From assembly GCA_943350875.1 (NCBI GenBank), contig CALRAL010000002.1, positions 132,221-178,507 on the forward strand: a stretch of 46,287 nucleotides of DNA, read 5' to 3'. This DNA comes from Candidatus Nomurabacteria bacterium (lineage in GTDB: Bacteria; Patescibacteriota; Minisyncoccia; Phycocordibacterales; UBA9973). Each line of letters starts with the position of its first letter. The first letter of the stretch is position 1. Both the position numbers and the translations under genes were made by a program. The notes under the pieces are model-generated. The model was not told where the DNA came from. It saw only the letters and a list, made by a program, of their open reading frames with translations, and ran no database searches. This document shows, piece by piece, positions 16,818 through 46,287 of this stretch.

Positions 16818-17495
16818 CTAAGGAGTAATTCTATTTTCGTTAAATATCTGTTCGTGTATTTTAAAATCTAATTCCATGTTTTTTATATATTCTGGAATCA
16901 GAGAAAAATCAAGAATAGTTGATTCTGGTCGATTGCTTTCTATAAAATCTTGGTAGCTGGAAAATCCATATTGTTCTAAAAAATTCTTAGCCTCTTTTTT
17001 ATTTTTAACACCATTTTCTTTCCACCCTTTATCAATTATTGAAAGTGGATTAAGATGCACATAAGAAAATATATACATATATTGTGATTCATTATTAATG
17101 TGTTCTGATCTGAAAGGATGGGTAAAAAGGGGACCGCTCCTTTCGTATTTAGTATTAAAATACATTGAATAAGCGGTTAAAAGTTTAGCCATAAATTTAC
17201 TTATACCGCCAGACTTATGTTCATATAAAATTAAGTGAAAATGATTTGGCATTAGACAATAACCTAAAATTGAAACAAGAGTTTTACTTCTTTTTTCTTT
17301 AAAAATATCTTTCAAATTATTTTTACTTGTTTGCAGAAAATTGTCCATTCTAAATGAATCAGTTTGGTTCATTATATACAATAGGGCGACAAAACGATTG
17401 TAGTCTTTTATATTAAGAAATATCTTACGTTTTTCTACTCCTCGAGAATATATGTGATAATATTCGCCTTCAACAAATGGGGTTTTTCTATACAT
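16818..17495 (-). CDS. REP-associated tyrosine transposase-like protein (Y1_Tnp/IS200-like)
   Basis: FVEGEYYHIYSRGVEKRKIF, YCLMPNHFHLILYE, YIFSYVHLNPLS. Start at MYRKTPF (17495) chosen because the longer ORF start runs through the REP repeat. Confidence 0.85.
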   Translation of the reverse strand: MYRKTPFVEGEYYHIYSRGVEKRKIFLNIKDYNRFVALLYIMNQTDSFRMDNFLQTSKNNLKDIFKEKRSKTLVSILGYCLMPNHFHLILYEHKSGGISKFMAKLLTAYSMYFNTKYERSGPLFTHPFRSEHINNESQYMYIFSYVHLNPLSIIDKGWKENGVKNKKEAKNFLEQYGFSSYQDFIESNRPESTILDFSLIPEYIKNMELDFKIHEQIFNENRITP

Positions 17496-17518
17496 ATATC
17501 TATTATATATGGATATAA

Positions 17519-17544
17519 AATTTAAGCAAGGGTAGTCCTTGCTG
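17519..17544. repeat. REP-like hairpin, right copy flanking RAYT-1
   Basis: AATTTAAGCAAGGGTAGTCCTTGCTG. Confidence 0.8.
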
Positions 17545-17714
17545 AAAATACTGGAAATAAGAAACATTATATTTAGTTATCCACATTATTCTTTGACAAA
17601 AACTGTCGGGGGTAGTGTTACGGTATTACTATAATTTGGATTAAAAAATATGAAAGAAGAATTTAAAAATTATACTGAACAAAAAGAGATATCTTGAAAA
17701 TAGATACGGAAAGT

Positions 17715-17741
17715 AAAATACAAGGCAAGACCTTGTATTTT
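17715..17741. repeat. Hairpin with AGGCAAGACCT core
   Basis: AAAATACAAGG-CAAGA-CCTTGTATTTT; same loop as the RAYT-2 hairpins. Confidence 0.75.
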
Positions 17742-24687: not shown

Positions 24688-24712
24688 AATTGCTAGGCAA
24701 GACCTAGCAATT
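24688..24712. repeat. REP-like hairpin copy b
   Basis: AATTGCTAGGCAAGACCTAGCAATT. Confidence 0.85.
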
Positions 24713-25373
24713 TTTCATTGTAGCTTAACCAGCCAAAGACTTCTTCTTGAAATGTTTCTTTGTTTAGAAAATATTTTGGGAAAACTTTTATATTTAGTAT
24801 TTTATTTTGAACCCTCTCTTTTTCCAGGTAATCAAGATAACTTGAATATTTGTAGTTTTGTAAATATTCAAGAGTTTCTTTTTTATTTTTAATTCCATTT
24901 TCCTTCCAATTTTTATCTATTAATTTTACTGGATTTAAATGAATATAAGAGAAAATATATTTTAGGTATCTATCTTCATACAAATGTTCAGACTTAAATT
25001 TACCTTCAAATAAACTCCCGATTCTTTTGTATTTTTTGTTGTAATACATCACATAGGCGGTCATAAGTTTTTGCATAAATTTACTGATACCTTTTTCTTC
25101 TATCTGAGTGATAAGAATATGAAAATGATTAGGCATTAGACAATAAGAACCGATTGATACAATTTGTTTTCCTCTTTCAAAATCATAAGGACTTTCTCCT
25201 TTGGCCAGAGTAAAGATCCTAAAATCATTGGTGGAATTACAAGCGTACATAAGACTCAAAAAGCGGGAATAATCTTCATTATCATGAAAAATTTTCTGTT
25301 TACTATTACCACGATTGTATATATGATAATATTCACCATTGGCTAAATTTATTTTTCGAATAGACATAAACAT
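24693..25373 (-). CDS. REP-associated tyrosine transposase-like protein (Y1_Tnp), second copy
   Basis: NLANGEYYHIYNRGNSKQKIFHD, YCLMPNHFHILITQ, YIFSYIHLNPVKLI. Confidence 0.87.
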   Translation of the reverse strand: MFMSIRKINLANGEYYHIYNRGNSKQKIFHDNEDYSRFLSLMYACNSTNDFRIFTLAKGESPYDFERGKQIVSIGSYCLMPNHFHILITQIEEKGISKFMQKLMTAYVMYYNKKYKRIGSLFEGKFKSEHLYEDRYLKYIFSYIHLNPVKLIDKNWKENGIKNKKETLEYLQNYKYSSYLDYLEKERVQNKILNIKVFPKYFLNKETFQEEVFGWLSYNEKLLGLA

Positions 25374-37771: not shown

Positions 37772-37825
37772 TGATACAAATCATATTGCATTTTTACTAA
37801 AATGAGATAGAATGGTTCTATCTCT

Positions 37826-37898
37826 GGGCCGTTAGCTCATCTGGTAGAGCACCTCATTTGCAATGAGGGGGTGGCAGGTTCGAGTCCTGTACGGTCCA
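37826..37898 (+). tRNA. tRNA-Ala (anticodon TGC)
   Basis: GGGCCGTTAGCTCATCTGGTAGAGCACCTCATTTGCAATGAGGGGGTGGCAGGTTCGAGTCCTGTACGGTCCA; full cloverleaf. Confidence 0.95.
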
Positions 37899-39398
37899 CC
37901 CGATTGAATTTCCCCGCGAAAATGCGTCCGCGCTCCGCGCGGTGATGGGAAGTTCGGCAAGAAAAGAAAAGGGCGTTTTGAAATCCACGGAGAGTGCGCC
38001 TGCGCGCAAATGGCGGTTCGAGCCGATGGTTTTCAAAAAAGTTTTCATTTCCTCAAACTTTTTTGAAGAAGCGAGATTTTGTGCTTGGTTGGCTTGCAAA
38101 ATCCAGTTTCGCACGAGTTCGAGCCAATGATTTCCTTTTCGCTCAAAATCAGATAATTTTTCCTCCAGCGTTTTCTTTTCAGACATCAAAGCGTTCTTTT
38201 TCTGTTGAAACTCCGACAACTCAAAACCGCCGTCCAAGTATCCGTCCATGAGGCGGTCAATCTTTGCTTTGATGTCAGAAATAGAAAAACGCAGATTTTG
38301 AGCGAAAACTCCCGATGATTGGCTGTTTTCACTTTCCCACTCGGCGAGCTTGCCGAGATATTTGTCCCGCCATTCATCGGGTAAAGAAACCTTTTGACAA
38401 AGTTCTTGCACTTGTCGTTCAAATTCTTCTTCCCGCAAAAATTTATTTTCAGAACATTTAGTAATTTTGCTCTTGTGGGTGCAACGATAATAGATAAACT
38501 GCAAACCGCTTTTCTTGATATGTCGCTCGGCGGTTATCGCATAGCCACATTCCCCACAAGTAGCAAAATTGAGAAACTGAAAATTCTTTTTCTTTTGATT
38601 TTTGCGGGGTTTTCCATTTGCGACAAGTGCTTCCTGTATCTTGTCAAAAGTTTTCTTTGAAATCATTGGCTTGTGCGAACCCTGATGCACTTCGCCTCGG
38701 TAAGAAAAATATCCATAGTAAAAAGGATTTTTCAAAATATGTTCTACCGAGGCGAGTGCGAAAGGTTTGCCAGATCGTGCGCCAACCAAGCCAAGAGAAA
38801 ACATTTTGCGTTGAATCGCCGTGAGTGTATATTCGCCAGTGCTAAAAAGCTCCAATATCTCTTTTACTTTACGAAATGTCTTTTTGTTAGGTTCAATCGT
38901 ACGAAGTCTCGGTTCGTTAAAATAACCGATTGGAGCTTTTGCCGATAATTCACCACGGCGTATCTTTTGCCGTATTCCACGCAAAATGTTTTCTCTTAAA
39001 TTGTCGGTGTAATATTTTGCTTGTCCGAAAGCGACACTCAACATGAATTTTCCTTGTGGTGTCGCTTCGAACCAAAATGTCGGGAATTTTAGCGCAACAA
39101 TTTTTAGTGTATCCACAAAATATATGACCTTGCCACCGTCAATGCTATTTCTCGCCAAACGATCTGGATTCCACGCTAAAATTCCCGAGGCAGAACCTTT
39201 TTCAATTTCGCCAAGCATTTCGTTAAATATCTCACGACCAGGCTCTTTTGCCGTCTTACTTTCGTAATACTCACGAACGATAAATAATCCCTGTTGCTTG
39301 GCGTATTCCCGAAGCTCCGTCAATTGAGCCTCAATACTCAAAACTTGGCGTTCTTCATCTTCACTTGATTTTCTACAATAAATAAAATATTTGATCAT
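37854..39398 (-). CDS. Large serine recombinase; C-terminus overlaps tRNA-Ala
   Basis: IYCRKSSEDEERQVLSIEAQ (catalytic Ser), GILAWNPDRLARN, recombinase domain, zinc ribbon CGECGYAIT...YRCTHKSKITKC, coiled coil. Confidence 0.92.
   Translation of the reverse strand: MIKYFIYCRKSSEDEERQVLSIEAQLTELREYAKQQGLFIVREYYESKTAKEPGREIFNEMLGEIEKGSASGILAWNPDRLARNSIDGGKVIYFVDTLKIVALKFPTFWFEATPQGKFMLSVAFGQAKYYTDNLRENILRGIRQKIRRGELSAKAPIGYFNEPRLRTIEPNKKTFRKVKEILELFSTGEYTLTAIQRKMFSLGLVGARSGKPFALASVEHILKNPFYYGYFSYRGEVHQGSHKPMISKKTFDKIQEALVANGKPRKNQKKKNFQFLNFATCGECGYAITAERHIKKSGLQFIYYRCTHKSKITKCSENKFLREEEFERQVQELCQKVSLPDEWRDKYLGKLAEWESENSQSSGVFAQNLRFSISDIKAKIDRLMDGYLDGGFELSEFQQKKNALMSEKKTLEEKLSDFERKGNHWLELVRNWILQANQAQNLASSKKFEEMKTFLKTIGSNRHLRAGALSVDFKTPFSFLAELPITARSADAFSRGNSIGWTVQDSNLPPPHCK
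37896..38019. repeat. Inverted-repeat arm 1, att-like site adjacent to tRNA-Ala
   Basis: CCACCCGATTGAATTTCCCCGCGAAAATGCGTCCGCGCTCCGCGCGG...; near-identical inverted copy at 39506-39629. Confidence 0.85.
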
Positions 39399-39505: not shown

Positions 39506-39629
39506 GAACCGCCATTTGCGCGCAAGCACGCTCTCTGTGGATTTCAAAACGCCCTTTTCTTTTCTTGCCGAACTTCCCATCACCGCGCGGAGCGCGGACG
39601 CATTTTCGCGGGGAAATTCAATCGGGTGG
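39506..39629. repeat. Inverted-repeat arm 2
   Basis: Reverse complement of 37896-38019 apart from a few differences near the inner end. Confidence 0.85.
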
Positions 39630-39737
39630 TGTGTCATTAACAAAGTCCGAACCTATTACGAACAAAATCCTGATGCCGACTAATCGCACGCTCCGCGTGC
39701 GTGGTGGCTCGGAACTACCTCGTACGCTCTAAACAAT

Positions 39738-39887
39738 GGACTCGGTTTTGCGGAAGCAATTTTCTGGGGATATGGTTTCCGCAAAACCTCGGCTACTTTC
39801 GGATTTCGCAAGCGGAGGAGGAGGGGTCTGGGGAGGAATCCTCCGCTTGCTCCATCCGTTTTCTTTTGGCGAAATTCGGGGCGGACA
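39738..39887. repeat. Left ~150-bp inverted repeat of the cargo module
   Basis: GGACTCGGTTTTGCGGAAGCAATTTTC...GGGGCGGACA; reverse complement at 45970-46119. Confidence 0.9.
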
Positions 39888-39952: not shown

Positions 39953-40159
39953 ATGAAAAGTGAATCTGCGAAATTAGGCAAGAATTTAAAGCGTATCCGA
40001 ACAGAGAAAGGCATTACACAGGGCGATATTGTTCGAAATCTCGGCGTTAGCCGAAGTTTTATAAGCAATATTGAGAATGGGAAGACAAACCCAACACTTT
40101 CAACCATTACTAGTATTGCCAAAGCGCTTGGTGTTTCGAGCGATGAATTGCTAAAATAG
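39953..40159 (+). CDS. XRE-family HTH regulator, probable restriction-modification controller protein
   Basis: LGKNLKRIRTEKGITQGDIVRNLGVSRSFISNIENGKTNPTLSTITSIAKALGVSSDELLK. The upstream part of the supplied ORF is repeat-derived. Confidence 0.88.
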   Translation: MKSESAKLGKNLKRIRTEKGITQGDIVRNLGVSRSFISNIENGKTNPTLSTITSIAKALGVSSDELLK

Positions 40160-40165
40160 AGACAT

Positions 40166-41485
40166 ATGCTTACCTTAGATACAAGAAAAATAATGAAAAC
40201 CTTTGTATCACTTAAACCGGAAGCGGTTTGGTCTTTTAAAAATGTTGCTCGATCGGAAACCACCGCTTTAACTCACAGCTATCACAGATACCCTGCAAAA
40301 TTTATTCCCAATATTGTAGAAAAGCTACTTAACGATTTTACAAAAAAGGGCGATTTAATACTTGATCCTTTTGGAGGATGTGGAACAACACTTGTAGAAT
40401 CAAAGAGGCTCGGACGAAGAAGTGTTTGTTTTGACATAAATCCAGTGGCTAAATTTATCGCCGAAGTAAAAGTAACTCCAATCAATCCAACAAAATTAAA
40501 TAGTGAGTTTGAAAAGTTACAGAGTAGACTTTCAAAAAAGAAAAAAGTTGTTTCAAATTACCACTTAAATAACGACAGAATACTCTATTGGTTCGATAAA
40601 AAAACGATTAAAGAATTAGATTTTGTCTATTCTGAAATCAAGAAAATAAAAAATAAAGACATAAGAAAATTTTTCTTGTGTGCTTTCTCGCATAACTTAA
40701 AAAATAGCTCTCGTTGGCTAATGAAAAGCATTAAGCCTACGATTGATAAAGATAAAAATATTCCATCTGTCGTAAAAAATCTTCTTAAGCATTCAAGATC
40801 AATGATTAAAAAGAACACTCAATTTTATTCATTGCTTAAAACGGAGGGTAATCTGAAAACTTCGGCAAAAGTGTTGCTTAGGGACTCAACAAAAAAGTTT
40901 TCCCTTAAAAATAATGAGGTTGATTTGATTATCACTTCTCCCCCCTATGTAACTTCCTATGAATATGCCGATCTGCATCAGCTTTCCTTGCTTTGGTTTG
41001 GCAACGACAAAAAAGACTTCAAGGGATGGTATAAATTTTCAAGCAATTTTACTGATTTTCGAAAAAACTTTATTGGCACAAGTTATAAGAATAAACAGAA
41101 AGGAGAAATCGGGAGTCAAATTGGCTCAAATATTACCGACAATCTTTACAGTTTGGACAAAGCACTCTCAAAAGATGTTTCAAATTATTTTATTGATATG
41201 AATTTAGCATTTAGAGAAATGCACCGCGTTTTGAAAAAAGGTAAACATGCCTGTATCGTGATTGGTAACACAGAGCTTAGGGGGGTTGCAATACTAAACG
41301 CAGAAGTAGCAACAGAACAAATGCTCAAGGTTGGTTTTAAGAATCCTCGCATAATTAAAAGAGAAGTTGGAAATAAAATGATTACCCCTTGGCGAGATAC
41401 TAATACAGGAAAATTTACCAGTATGAGGAACCCAAACAAGAAACATGCTTATGAATATGAGTATGTTCTCATAATGGAAAAATAA
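40166..41485 (+). CDS. DNA methyltransferase (N4-cytosine/N6-adenine class)
   Basis: HRYPAKFIP, LILDPFGGCGTTLVESKRLGRRSVCFDINP, LIITSPPYVTSYEYADLHQ. Confidence 0.9.
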   Translation: MLTLDTRKIMKTFVSLKPEAVWSFKNVARSETTALTHSYHRYPAKFIPNIVEKLLNDFTKKGDLILDPFGGCGTTLVESKRLGRRSVCFDINPVAKFIAEVKVTPINPTKLNSEFEKLQSRLSKKKKVVSNYHLNNDRILYWFDKKTIKELDFVYSEIKKIKNKDIRKFFLCAFSHNLKNSSRWLMKSIKPTIDKDKNIPSVVKNLLKHSRSMIKKNTQFYSLLKTEGNLKTSAKVLLRDSTKKFSLKNNEVDLIITSPPYVTSYEYADLHQLSLLWFGNDKKDFKGWYKFSSNFTDFRKNFIGTSYKNKQKGEIGSQIGSNITDNLYSLDKALSKDVSNYFIDMNLAFREMHRVLKKGKHACIVIGNTELRGVAILNAEVATEQMLKVGFKNPRIIKREVGNKMITPWRDTNTGKFTSMRNPNKKHAYEYEYVLIMEK

Positions 41486-41488
41486 TTT

Positions 41489-43348
41489 ATGCCAAATTTT
41501 AACCTAAATGAATTAAGACGAGATACTATAAATAATAATCGCTATGAAAGGCGTTTGGCTAAACTTGTCTCAATGAATCAGGAAGTAGACAGGATTAAGG
41601 CTGTTGTGGAAAGTGCGGTTGATAATACTCAAAAAGGACAAAAGTCTTTTGTTATTTATGGTGAACCGCAAAGCGGAAAGACAGAAATGATGATTGCTTT
41701 AACAGCAAAACTCCTTGATGTTGGTTTTAAGATTGTGATTGCCTTGCTTAATGATAGTGTCCAACTTTTGGGACAAAACCTCGAGCGTTTTCAACGATCA
41801 GGTCTTTCTCCTTCTCCAAAAAAGTTTAGTGAAATTCTGCCGCCCGAAGTAAAAATTGGAGATCATCAATGGGTTATTTTTTGTAAGAAAAATTCAAAAG
41901 ACCTACATAAACTTATTCAAAAGCTAGATGGACACTCTAATAGAGTAGTAATTGATGATGAAGCTGATTATGCAACACCAAACTCAAAAATAAACAAAAA
42001 AGAGAAGAGTAAGATAAATGAACTAACAGAAAAATTGATTGGTTCGGAAGGTACTTATATCGGTGTTACAGCAACACCCGCTCGTCTTGATTTAAACAAA
42101 ACTCATCAAAATCAAAATGAGTTTTGGATTGATTTTCAGCCACATTCAAATTATACAGGGCAGGACATATTCTTTCCTGTTTCGACAGAAAATTTACCAT
42201 ATAGGCTAACTTTTTTACCGGACGCAGGCGATAACCCAAAACATTTACGAGAAGCATTGTTTAGCTTCATAGTAAATGTGGGATATTTAAACTCTGTTGT
42301 TAATGATCCAGAAAAGAATTACTCCATGCTTGTTCATACAAGTAGCAAAAAAGCTGACCATACAGTTGACTATAAACAAATTGTTAAAACTTTTGAAGTC
42401 TTAAAAGACGATAAAGATTCAAACCACGAAGCATACTTTAAAAGAATATGGGAAATTGCCAGTGCAAGGTACCCAGAACATGCAAATGAAATAACGAAAT
42501 ATGCTATTGGTCATATAGACAGAAATAACATTGTTGTAATGAATAGCGATAAAGAAGTAAACGCGGCAGATAATCGAACAGCGACTGATCCCACTGCTCC
42601 CTTTACTGTAGTTATTGGTGGAAATATTATTTCCCGAGGAGTTACCTTTAATAATCTTTTGTCTATGTTCTTTACGAGAGATGTTAAACATAAATTACAA
42701 CAAGATACTTATATTCAAAGAGCTAGAATGTTTGGTTCACGAAATGATTACTTAAAGTATTTTGAGTTAATAATTCCTAAATCGCTTTATTTGGATTGGC
42801 AAAAATGTTTTATTTTCCATAGATTATCTCTTGAATCAAGAAAGCAAGATAAACGAACGCCTGTCTGGCTTGATGGCGAAAGGATTACTGCTGTTTCTGC
42901 GGGTAGTATTGATAAAACAAATGTCGTCGTAGACAAGGGTGAAATGAGCTTTGAACTTTTCAATTTTGATAATGAAAATATTGAAGAAATTCTCAAGCAA
43001 AATATAAAACCAATTCAAAAAGTAAAAGCACTTTCCGAACTATTTGGGAAAAACTGCCTGCCTGATTATTTAATTAGTTATATAGAGGGATTTTGTCCAC
43101 TTGGCGATGAGTCTTTGGCGGTACACTCTCCAAAAACTATATCCGGATACACAGAAAAAGAGGGAGAAATGGATAAAAATACTATTACTCGTGCGAAAGG
43201 GTTTATTGGGGACAGAGAAATGGAATTAACAAAATATCCAAACGCAATCCATCACATCAATATTCTTTTTAACGATATAGGGAAAGCTCGCATTTTCTAC
43301 AGATACAGAGGCAGTATTCGTTTCTTAAAAACTCCTAGAAATATATGA
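41489..43348 (+). CDS. Z1-domain SF2-type ATPase
   Basis: GEPQSGKTEM (Walker A), VVIDDEADYATPNSK, YIGVTATPARLDL, VVIGGNIISRGVTFNNLLSMFFTRD...QDTYIQRARMFGSRNDY. Confidence 0.82.
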   Translation: MPNFNLNELRRDTINNNRYERRLAKLVSMNQEVDRIKAVVESAVDNTQKGQKSFVIYGEPQSGKTEMMIALTAKLLDVGFKIVIALLNDSVQLLGQNLERFQRSGLSPSPKKFSEILPPEVKIGDHQWVIFCKKNSKDLHKLIQKLDGHSNRVVIDDEADYATPNSKINKKEKSKINELTEKLIGSEGTYIGVTATPARLDLNKTHQNQNEFWIDFQPHSNYTGQDIFFPVSTENLPYRLTFLPDAGDNPKHLREALFSFIVNVGYLNSVVNDPEKNYSMLVHTSSKKADHTVDYKQIVKTFEVLKDDKDSNHEAYFKRIWEIASARYPEHANEITKYAIGHIDRNNIVVMNSDKEVNAADNRTATDPTAPFTVVIGGNIISRGVTFNNLLSMFFTRDVKHKLQQDTYIQRARMFGSRNDYLKYFELIIPKSLYLDWQKCFIFHRLSLESRKQDKRTPVWLDGERITAVSAGSIDKTNVVVDKGEMSFELFNFDNENIEEILKQNIKPIQKVKALSELFGKNCLPDYLISYIEGFCPLGDESLAVHSPKTISGYTEKEGEMDKNTITRAKGFIGDREMELTKYPNAIHHINILFNDIGKARIFYRYRGSIRFLKTPRNI

Positions 43349-43836
43349 TCAGAGAATTTGAATTTTACCACGGAGCTGTTTTAGCAAAATTGCTCCATGA
43401 ATCAGGGCAAAGCGTAACGATTGAACCCTTTCCAAGTGAAAGTAACGCCTCTTATGTCGTTAATAAAAATATTGGTCTTTTTATCAAGCATTCAGCTAAA
43501 AGAATGTCACCTTGGAGATTTAGCTTTGCACAAGAACATCAGGACGAGATTTTAGAAATGAAAAATAAGTTAGGCGAGGTATTTTTATTATTAGTTTGTG
43601 GAGAAGATGGAATTGTATCTTTGAGTTTTGAAGAATTAAAAAGTCTACTTAATGAAGCCCATGACCCAGTAGAGTGGATAAGTGTTGCTAGAAATAAAAA
43701 TACCCACTACACAGTAAAAGGTTCTGATGGCGATCTCGGATACAAAATTAGCCACAAGGATTTTCCAAGAAAACTATTTGAAAAAGAAATTGTAAGTCCA
43801 GAGAAAAGAAGTAAGGTTTTTTCTTGGTTTAAATAA
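43345..43836 (+). CDS. Uncharacterised 163-aa protein, candidate restriction nuclease
   Basis: ATGA overlap with Z1 gene; SYVVNKNIGLFIKHSAKRMSPWRFSFAQEHQDEI; no family confidently assigned. Confidence 0.65.
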   Translation: MIREFEFYHGAVLAKLLHESGQSVTIEPFPSESNASYVVNKNIGLFIKHSAKRMSPWRFSFAQEHQDEILEMKNKLGEVFLLLVCGEDGIVSLSFEELKSLLNEAHDPVEWISVARNKNTHYTVKGSDGDLGYKISHKDFPRKLFEKEIVSPEKRSKVFSWFK

Positions 43837-43843
43837 AAATATT

Positions 43844-44281
43844 ATGAAAATCTACGTCCTTGGAAGCACATATTTTATGAAAGAGATGGTTGAAGCAAAG
43901 AACAAGCTTTGTGAGCTTGGAATTGATGGTTGGATTCACCCACACTACGAAGCCTTTGTCCGTGGTGAGAAAAAAGAACATCTTGCTCGATGGAATAATG
44001 GCGAAAAAGCCGCATTAAAAAGAGAAAACAATTATCTCAAAGTTCACTACAAACATATTCTTGAAAGTGACGCAGTTTTAATAGTGAATATCAAGAAAAA
44101 TGGCAAGGACAATTATATCGGTGGAAATGTGCTTATAGAAATGGGCCAAGCTTTTGTGAATGATAAGAAAATATTTTTGACCAACAGTATTCCAACAGAT
44201 AGTCCGTATGCTGATGAGATTATTTCTATGGACCCGATTTGTCTTGAAGGTAAGTTGGAGAATATTAAAAAATATATATGA
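43844..44281 (+). CDS. Nucleoside 2-deoxyribosyltransferase-like protein
   Basis: SDAVLIVNIKKNGKDNYIGGNVLIEMGQAFVNDKKIFLTNSIP. Confidence 0.65.
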   Translation: MKIYVLGSTYFMKEMVEAKNKLCELGIDGWIHPHYEAFVRGEKKEHLARWNNGEKAALKRENNYLKVHYKHILESDAVLIVNIKKNGKDNYIGGNVLIEMGQAFVNDKKIFLTNSIPTDSPYADEIISMDPICLEGKLENIKKYI

Positions 44282-44832
44282 AAAAAGAATTATTAGAAAT
44301 TATAAATGAAAATGATGAGGTAATTGGTCTCGAAACTCGTGAGAAAATTCACAAAGAGGGTCTTCTTCATCGCGAAATACATATTTGGTTTCTAACTCCT
44401 AAAGCAGAGATCGTTTTCCAACACCGAGCAAAAGATAAAGACACTTATCCGGACAAACTGGATGCTACGGTTGGTGGACATGTTGAGCCCAAAATGTCTT
44501 ATGAAGAAACTGCTGTTAAAGAATGCAAAGAAGAAACAGGAATGGACATTGATTTGAATAAACTTGTCTTTCTAAGAAAGATAAGAAAGAAAAGTTTTGA
44601 TGAAGCCACTGGTTTGACCAACAATACTATACGTAGTCAGTACGCTTATCTTTTTGACGGTTCAATAAACGATTTACAAGTTGAGGATGGCAAAGCAGAA
44701 GGTTTTGAAGCGTGGAAAATTGATGACCTTTCTCATCTTTCGGAAGCTGATAAAAATAAATTTATCCCTCTAATTCTTCGCGAAGATATGCTTGATATTT
44801 TTAATAAAGCGAGAGAAATTTTAATTAAATAA
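44278..44832 (+). CDS. NUDIX hydrolase (IPP isomerase-like subgroup)
   Basis: GGHVEPKMSYEETAVKECKEETGMDI (Nudix box); ATGA overlap with previous ORF. Confidence 0.88.
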   Translation: MKKELLEIINENDEVIGLETREKIHKEGLLHREIHIWFLTPKAEIVFQHRAKDKDTYPDKLDATVGGHVEPKMSYEETAVKECKEETGMDIDLNKLVFLRKIRKKSFDEATGLTNNTIRSQYAYLFDGSINDLQVEDGKAEGFEAWKIDDLSHLSEADKNKFIPLILREDMLDIFNKAREILIK

Positions 44833-44835
44833 TTT

Positions 44836-45432
44836 ATGGAATTTTTTACTATTAAAAACATAATAGGAATTGTCGCGATTGCTTTGACTTTTATTGGTTA
44901 TGCTCCATATTTTCGCGATTTATTAAAAGGTAAAACCAAGCCTCATATTTTTTCTTGGTTTATTTGGGCAATTGTTACTTCAATAATTTTTGCACTTCAA
45001 GTTAGCGCGGGTGCAGGACTTGGTTCCGTAGTAACACTTGCTGTTGCTGTAATTTCTTTGTCGATTTTTATTTTAGGATTTAAAAATGGAAATAAGATCA
45101 TAAAAAAGGTAGATGTTGTCTTTCTTGTTTTGGCTCTGCTCGCAATGCCGCTTTGGTTAGTGATTAAACAACCAGTTCTTTCAATAATTTTACTTTCTAC
45201 AATTGACATGCTCGGCTTTGCTCCAACAGTTAGAAAATCTTGGAATGCTCCGTATTCTGAAACATTATCTTTGTATACAATCACAACATTTCGCCATGGG
45301 TTAAGTATTGTTGCTCTTGCTAATTACAATATCGTTACACTATTATTTCCTAGCACATGGGTAATCGCAAATGCTTTGTTTTCAATAATGTTAATAATTA
45401 GGCGTAAGAAAATTCCTAATCCTAATCTGTAA
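44836..45432 (+). CDS. Multi-pass membrane protein, PQ-loop/SemiSWEET-like
   Basis: Repeated halves IGYAPYFRDLLKGKTKPHIFSW and LGFAPTVRKSWNAPYSETLSLY; several TM segments. Confidence 0.6.
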   Translation: MEFFTIKNIIGIVAIALTFIGYAPYFRDLLKGKTKPHIFSWFIWAIVTSIIFALQVSAGAGLGSVVTLAVAVISLSIFILGFKNGNKIIKKVDVVFLVLALLAMPLWLVIKQPVLSIILLSTIDMLGFAPTVRKSWNAPYSETLSLYTITTFRHGLSIVALANYNIVTLLFPSTWVIANALFSIMLIIRRKKIPNPNL

Positions 45433-45885
45433 GAAAGGGAGTCCCGCTCGCATCCCTCTCCTCCTCTGCGAGCGGGCTTGCGCGCGAACGGGAGGGTGGG
45501 TCAAGCGCATTTGTATTCCGCCTCGGGTATTTCCGCTAGGAGCGTCCAGGGCTAAAGGACGAGCGCCGACGCAATAAGAATCTCTAAACTCTAAAATTAC
45601 AATAAGCTTGGATATGAAAACGAGGAAGGGGGTTGTGCGAGGGCGGACTCCGAAGGCACAAACAACGGAGGCAGGAACAGAAAATAATCACAAAACTTTT
45701 TAAAGCACTGAATACATAAAATTACATCTGCGAGGAGGAGACCGAAGCTGGGGGAAGGATTCCTTCCTTCCCCCAAACAGCGTCCTGCCCTCGCTCCCGC
45801 TCCGCAGAGCGGTAGAGCGAGGAATAGCAGGACACAAAGTAGTCTAGGCGCTCGTAGCCCTAGCGGAAATACCCGAGGCGGATGC
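45433..45885. other. Highly structured non-coding block
   Basis: 23-bp perfect IR 45518-45540/45859-45881, GAGCGCC/GGCGCTC, several internal GC-rich hairpins, no credible ORF. Confidence 0.6.
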
Positions 45886-45969
45886 CGAGGGCTTATCTCC
45901 TTTAGACTTGGACAACCACTAGCAGAGAAATAGCCGAGACAATTTTATAGTATGATGTATTTGCATTTT

Positions 45970-46119
45970 TGTCCGCCCCGAATTTCGCCAAAAGAAAACG
46001 GATGGAGCAAGCGGAGGATTCCTCCCCAGACCCCTCCTCCTCCGCTTGCGAAATCCGAAAGTAGCCGAGGTTTTGCGGAAACCATATCCCCAGAAAATTG
46101 CTTCCGCAAAACCGAGTCC
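45970..46119. repeat. Right ~150-bp inverted repeat of the cargo module
   Basis: Reverse complement of 39738-39887. Confidence 0.9.
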
Positions 46120-46129
46120 GTATTGTATT

Positions 46130-46202
46130 CGTGCTTCCGTCCTTTTCCTTTTGGAAAAGCTCTGTGCTTCGCACAGAGGCGCTTCAGCGCAACGGATGCA
46201 CG
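46130..46202. repeat. 73-nt four-way-junction palindrome
   Basis: CGTGCtTCCGT/ACGGAtGCACG outer stem enclosing CTTTTCC-TTTT-GGAAAAG, CTCTGTGC-TTC-GCACAGAG, GCGC-TTCA-GCGC. Confidence 0.8.
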
Positions 46203-46287
46203 ATTAGTCCGCATCAGGATTTTGTTCGTAATAGGTTCGGACTTTGTTAATGACACACCACCCGATTGAATTTCCCCGCGAAAATGC
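46203..46287. repeat. Outer inverted-repeat block including the third att-like site (runs off window end)
   Basis: CGATTAGTCcGCATCAGGATTTTGTTCGTAATAGGTTCGG...CCACCCGATTGAATTTCCCCGCGAAAATGC; inverted copy at about 39600-39683. Confidence 0.85.

Follow-up and report, generated by a model that had tools for sequence, protein, structure and literature searches.

The question raised by this locus is what a short stretch of DNA that folds into a cross is doing at the end of an inserted element in a Candidatus Nomurabacteria bacterium, a representative of the Patescibacteria, tiny uncultured organisms with very small genomes and of whose gene exchange little is known. The cross, 73 nt long (46130..46202, plus strand, of the window, which is the whole stretch of 46,287 nucleotides analysed here), forms part of the right-hand terminal repeat of a cargo unit, next to a gene for a large serine recombinase.

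The fold

Folding of 46130-46202 returned exactly the coordinates and anatomy of the original prediction: an outer stem (46130-46140/46192-46202, 11 positions with one T.T mismatch) that encloses hairpin 1 (46142-46159, 7 bp, loop TTTT), hairpin 2 (46160-46178, 8 bp, loop TTC) and hairpin 3 (46179-46190, 4 bp, loop TTCA), with C46141 and A46191 as the unpaired junction bases. The minimum free energy is -27.4 kcal/mol (z -8.1; none of 200 shuffles equally stable), and the fold exceeds chance also because it recurs elsewhere with compensatory changes. That it is not a tRNA, as proposed, is borne out by ARAGORN and Rfam searches, which found no tRNA or other RNA family at the cross; Rfam returned no relevant family at either gathering or relaxed thresholds, and a known RNA was therefore rejected. 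An intrinsic terminator was rejected as well, as no T-run follows a G+C-rich hairpin at the cross in the manner of a canonical terminator.

The composite element

Complete composites are ordered tRNA | A - recombinase - A' | B - cargo - B'. Arm B begins at the end with a promoter-like module that points outward; further inward come a cross, where there is one, and hairpins. In the window, the insertion site is the 3' end of a tRNA-Ala (TGC) gene (37825..37901, plus strand; ARAGORN/Rfam search), the putative attB. The recombinase gene (37854..39398, minus strand), encoding Resolvase, Recombinase and zinc-ribbon domains, reads with its 3' end into the tRNA and lies between arm A (37896..38019, plus strand) and its inverted copy A' (39506..39629, minus strand, 96.8%). 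An inner copy of the outward module (39626..39684, minus strand) points at the recombinase gene and is followed by the left counterpart of the cross slot (39684..39737, minus strand) and the left inner terminal repeat (39738..39887, minus strand). The cargo operon (39953..45432, plus strand) and a conserved structured non-coding segment at its 3' end (45440..45920, plus strand, no Rfam match) lead to the right inner terminal repeat (45970..46119, plus strand), which is 39738-39887 inverted and holds two further hairpins, then to the cross, and then to the outward module at the element end (46203..46261, plus strand). The last 26 positions (46262..46287, plus strand) join the start of arm A to this right terminal module at the contig end; such a joint may represent a circle junction, as in an excised circle, a tandem copy or an assembly tip.

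A short core is common to the junctions tRNA|A, module|A and module|flank in four complete composites, and, judged by sequence comparison, the three are shown to behave as attL, attP and attR would, respectively. The right terminal module, ending in the core CCAC, makes up half of the putative attP, and the inner module with arm A' is an inverted copy of it; the inner module|A junction is then an inverted copy of the attP expected in the circle. The domain set, the insertion at a tRNA 3' end and the junctions with a short common core are those of large-serine-recombinase elements, and the integrative element itself is of a known kind. On contig C1 of the same genome, an element splits tRNA-Thr(CGT) from prfB, with its outer module directly preceding the prfB start codon; the tRNA-Thr/prfB junction is unoccupied in relatives, and the two genes adjoin in L056, L120 and L121.

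Some other origins and behaviors were considered and rejected. A phage or plasmid origin was rejected after 45430-46287 matched neither phages nor plasmids, and the hairpin pattern matched nothing in the viral contigs of IMG/VR. Recombinase flipping of the kind known from the 2-micron plasmid was not observed: in all informative composites and recombinase loci, the 3' end of the recombinase gene is at the tRNA. A reading of ATT flanks as target duplication was dropped because the flanks vary among relatives. In one genome (G034, L065), the space between tRNA-Thr(GGT) and tRNA-Thr(CGT) is occupied by a cargo unit, and a recombinase unit comes after tRNA-Thr(CGT), so that the two units look split over two tRNA genes.

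The window cargo encodes an HTH regulator, an N6/N4 DNA methylase, a Z1-domain helicase-like ATPase, two proteins without a Pfam match, a NUDIX protein, and one more unmatched protein. Other elements carry type II methylases, a type IIG restriction enzyme, a PemK-like protein, an ADP-ribosyltransferase-like domain, an S51 peptidase and NUDIX, a set that resembles the contents of defence islands.

Nearly every cross is followed by one of approximately five outward modules, in a single orientation. These end in CAC or a similar triplet, with sequences diverging beyond, and the core motif is present in 66 of the 70 flanks (by pattern). The modules are promoter-like in relatives, the window copy being weak (7/12): a score of at least 9/12 is reached in the outward direction by 51 of 70 flanks, versus 8.6 in shuffles and two on the other strand. 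They stand where host transcription units are cut, and we infer that the outer module would restore expression of the gene that has been cut off, and that the inner one would drive the recombinase.

A variable slot in the terminal repeat

The cross is flanked, as predicted, by inverted-repeat blocks common to the left end, one of 150 bp (39738-39887/45970-46119, 100%) and one of 87 bp (39600-39686/46201-46287, 99%). The left segment between them, 39684-39737, differs from the right one, again as predicted: the four-way junction is absent, the z value is -1.4, and a lone short hairpin, CGCACGC-TCC-GCGTGCG, folds. The search of relatives for alternative contents of this slot, suggested along with the prediction, did find them: at the cross position, other elements have unrelated sequence, one hairpin, or nothing. 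Among 18 informative recombinase-side ends, approximately five have a four-way junction by our own reading of the folds, and the rest have a single hairpin, weak structure or nothing. With few recombinase-side ends carrying a cross and the left arm in the window lacking one, the cross is, by this comparison, dispensable.

Two elements of the same genome carry the cross in both arms, one of 4.4 kb on contig C5 (L016) and one of 3.8 kb on C1 (L111). Of 80 genomes from the genus, 22 contain a match to a covariance model trained on eight crosses, as do three of 290 across the phylum, own genome counted. A scan of 85,462 prokaryote species genomes with the exact 23-base pattern of hairpins 2-3 yielded 55 loci, and every title names either Patescibacteria, among them Nomura-, Zambryski-, Yanofsky-, Kaiser-, Ryan- and Daviesbacteria, or a plain "bacterium." Crosses are essentially absent outside terminal repeats.

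Covariation and hairpin turnover

For analysis of covariation, 73 crosses (56 distinct) were aligned, with the alignment fitted to the structure; as most loci had been picked by the exact pattern of hairpins 2-3, only hairpin 1 and the outer stem provide unbiased tests. Of the pair cells in the 56 distinct crosses, 97.6% are paired, and 200 show changes on both sides, versus 43.6 in column shuffles; such changes occur at 25 of 31 pairs. The covariation score is 0.354, versus 0.140 for shuffles and at most 0.092 for slid registers. In the outer stem, whose arms are approximately 51 nt apart, all 12 pairs covary. In hairpin 1, all 384 cells are Watson-Crick, with no G-T pair, and there are 77 double changes and no single ones, that is, no intermediates. 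Four-armed shapes built from unrelated or largely different sequence are found in L058/L202, L121 and L198. Sequence comparison shows a four-armed shape that persists while its letters change. An invariant segment free of structure-preserving variation, the outcome that would have spoken against the original prediction, is not what the relatives hold, such variation being abundant in them.

The same data speak to the level at which the shape would be kept. G-T pairs are nearly absent from the cross hairpins, and in the outer stem G-T and A-C mismatches occur in similar numbers (32 against 19), indicating no clear strand preference; together these favour the DNA level over RNA. In agreement with what had been proposed, the cross is best described as a four-way junction, probably at the DNA level, that occupies a variable slot of the terminal repeat.

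The hairpins, in addition, are shown by the aligned copies to change as whole blocks, and the 77 double changes in hairpin 1, with no G-T pairs and no intermediates, seem to reflect whole-hairpin exchange at the DNA level. Such wholesale swaps fit palindrome turnover and support the suggestion of a hot spot of nested palindrome insertion. The arms of L111, a single element, differ in their hairpin-2 allele. In L118 (5133-5214), a chimeric cross has been found: its second half reproduces, inverted, the first half of another cross, with the loop turned from TTC to GAA, and it has the signature of template switching. By template switching, arms become identical in a single step and loops are inverted, and both perfect hairpins and the pattern that favours the DNA level can result without selection (PMC8794818, PMC8604942).

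What is the cross for?

Our preferred reading, held tentatively and at somewhat less than an even chance, is that the cross is an optional boundary module at the DNA level, remodelled by template switching and carried in the terminal repeats of a family of Patescibacteria elements that have a serine recombinase and target tRNA genes. Local template switching would create, repair and exchange the hairpins, and the shape would be kept as a working boundary: a cruciform or hairpin array would keep the interior of the cargo apart from the promoter and att half-site at the end, and would shield from cargo transcription or supercoiling a promoter that may have to drive the recombinase at the inner end and an interrupted host gene, such as prfB, at the outer end. 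A boundary function is favoured as the cross, in arms that possess one, lies between the cargo and the terminal module and is not obviously needed for mobility. Counting against this reading are the dispensability of the cross, the perfect hairpins that template switching could yield unselected, and the weak promoter score of the terminal module in the window.

The main rival, somewhat unlikely in our judgment, is neutral turnover, in which hairpin-rich repeats are hot spots for polymerase template switching and the cross is a functionless by-product. The block-wise swapping of hairpin 1 without G-T intermediates, the two hairpin-2 alleles of L111 and the inverted loop of the L118 chimera are all changes of the kind that template switching is known to make (PMC8794818, PMC8604942), and the optional nature of the cross points the same way. 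However, neutrality does not readily account for three hairpins on a stem, with zero to two unpaired junction bases, recurring from unrelated sequence in the same place, nor for the covariation of all 12 pairs of an outer stem with such distant arms. Should the shape be used, the cross would be one of few instances in which selection acts on a four-way DNA junction; should it not, it would document clearly, in nature, how template switching builds complex folds.

A role at the RNA level, as the 3' tail of the cargo or non-coding RNA transcript that blocks read-through or stabilises the transcript, is quite unlikely. The right-arm cross does come after the cargo and the conserved non-coding segment, and its fold is stable, but it has no T-tract, and its hairpins are almost without G-U, whereas helix P1 of the non-coding segment has nine single versus 12 double changes. 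Moreover, in other elements the cross is also found in the left arm, upstream of the cargo.

Scarcely likely either is a folded single-stranded or cruciform DNA site recognised in mobilisation, by the recombinase or by a replication or transfer nuclease. It would agree with the DNA-level conservation and with the presence of crosses only at element ends, 48-62 nt inside the putative crossover point. However, large serine integrases use short double-stranded sites, cross-less elements have the same junctions, and no nuclease gene was recognised in the element apart from the cargo. The original suggestion of a recombination site is likewise not upheld, with similar elements lacking a cross and the putative recombination point lying beyond the cross at the module end, at that same distance, which is 59 nt in the window.

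Highly improbable is a REP-like palindrome inserted by a RAYT (Y1 transposase), two Y1_Tnp genes being in the window but 20-29 kb off and with GGCAAGACC hairpins of their own, and the cross having neither a tag nor copies of note outside terminal repeats. The two genes, RAYT-like, are at 16818-17567 and 24693-25373, with exact GGCAAGACC hairpin cores near them at 17724, 24696 and 25398.

Comparison with known systems

REP/REPIN sequences and their RAYTs resemble the cross in having short perfect intergenic hairpins with alternative complementary stems; REPs are defined by a GTAG or CGTC tag at one palindrome end (PMC3733652). Inspection of the cross in the window and of the related crosses found no such tag, the RAYT-associated hairpins are unrelated to the cross, and neither dispersed copies nor copies beside RAYT genes were found. 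The cross differs from REPs also as a four-way junction of fixed orientation away from RAYT genes, and the RAYT involvement raised originally was rejected on the hairpin comparison and the lack of dispersal.

Another system is the integron attC, like the cross a folded DNA kept in shape and not in sequence, near a cargo 3' end. However, there is no integron integrase here, the crossover would fall outside the fold, and inspection found no RYYYAAC/GTTRRRY core sites at the bases of the cross stem.

With known tRNA-targeting large-serine-recombinase elements, the window element shares the domain set, the tRNA 3'-end insertion, variable cargo, and an attL/attP/attR-like triad with a common core of approximately 3 bp. 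It differs in that recombinase and cargo each lie between long inverted repeats, that it retains an internal, inverted copy of attP, and that promoter-like modules facing outward are found at its ends together with hairpins and the cross. The yeast 2-micron plasmid has two unique regions parted by inverted repeats containing the recombination site. The putative circle of the window element would share only this layout, its recombinase being a serine instead of a tyrosine enzyme, and in one orientation in all complete composites.

The open-access literature, within its limited coverage, offered no description of this element or of the module, neither of the inverted-repeat layout nor of the covarying four-way junction. 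What emerges is a family of elements that target tRNA genes, carry restriction-modification, toxin or other cargo, and have ends in which the shape of the DNA outlasts its sequence. The fuller claim, of a cross conserved as a three-dimensional shape and recognised folded, ending undescribed quadripartite inverted-repeat serine-recombinase elements with a structured RNA of their own, is unlikely to hold as a whole.

Further observations on the terminal repeats and the non-coding segment

The non-coding segment is approximately 480 nt long (45440-45920 in the window; 4870-5360 in L016), with 21 distinct copies aligned, and includes a 24-bp long-range helix (45517-45540/45859-45882) and a possible pseudoknot. 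A hairpin GAACGGCTCATTT...AAATGAGCCGTTC or a close variant is found in this segment in L051, L056 and L146, and in the terminal repeats of L069 and L134, as if such hairpins moved between the two. An inner terminal-repeat hairpin (39807-39845 and 46012-46050) is G-rich in part, and that part, GGAGGAGGAGGGGTCTGGGGAGG, might adopt a G-quadruplex. Elsewhere in the same genome, contig C6 has a Group I intron match (L018, 1531-1771, minus strand).
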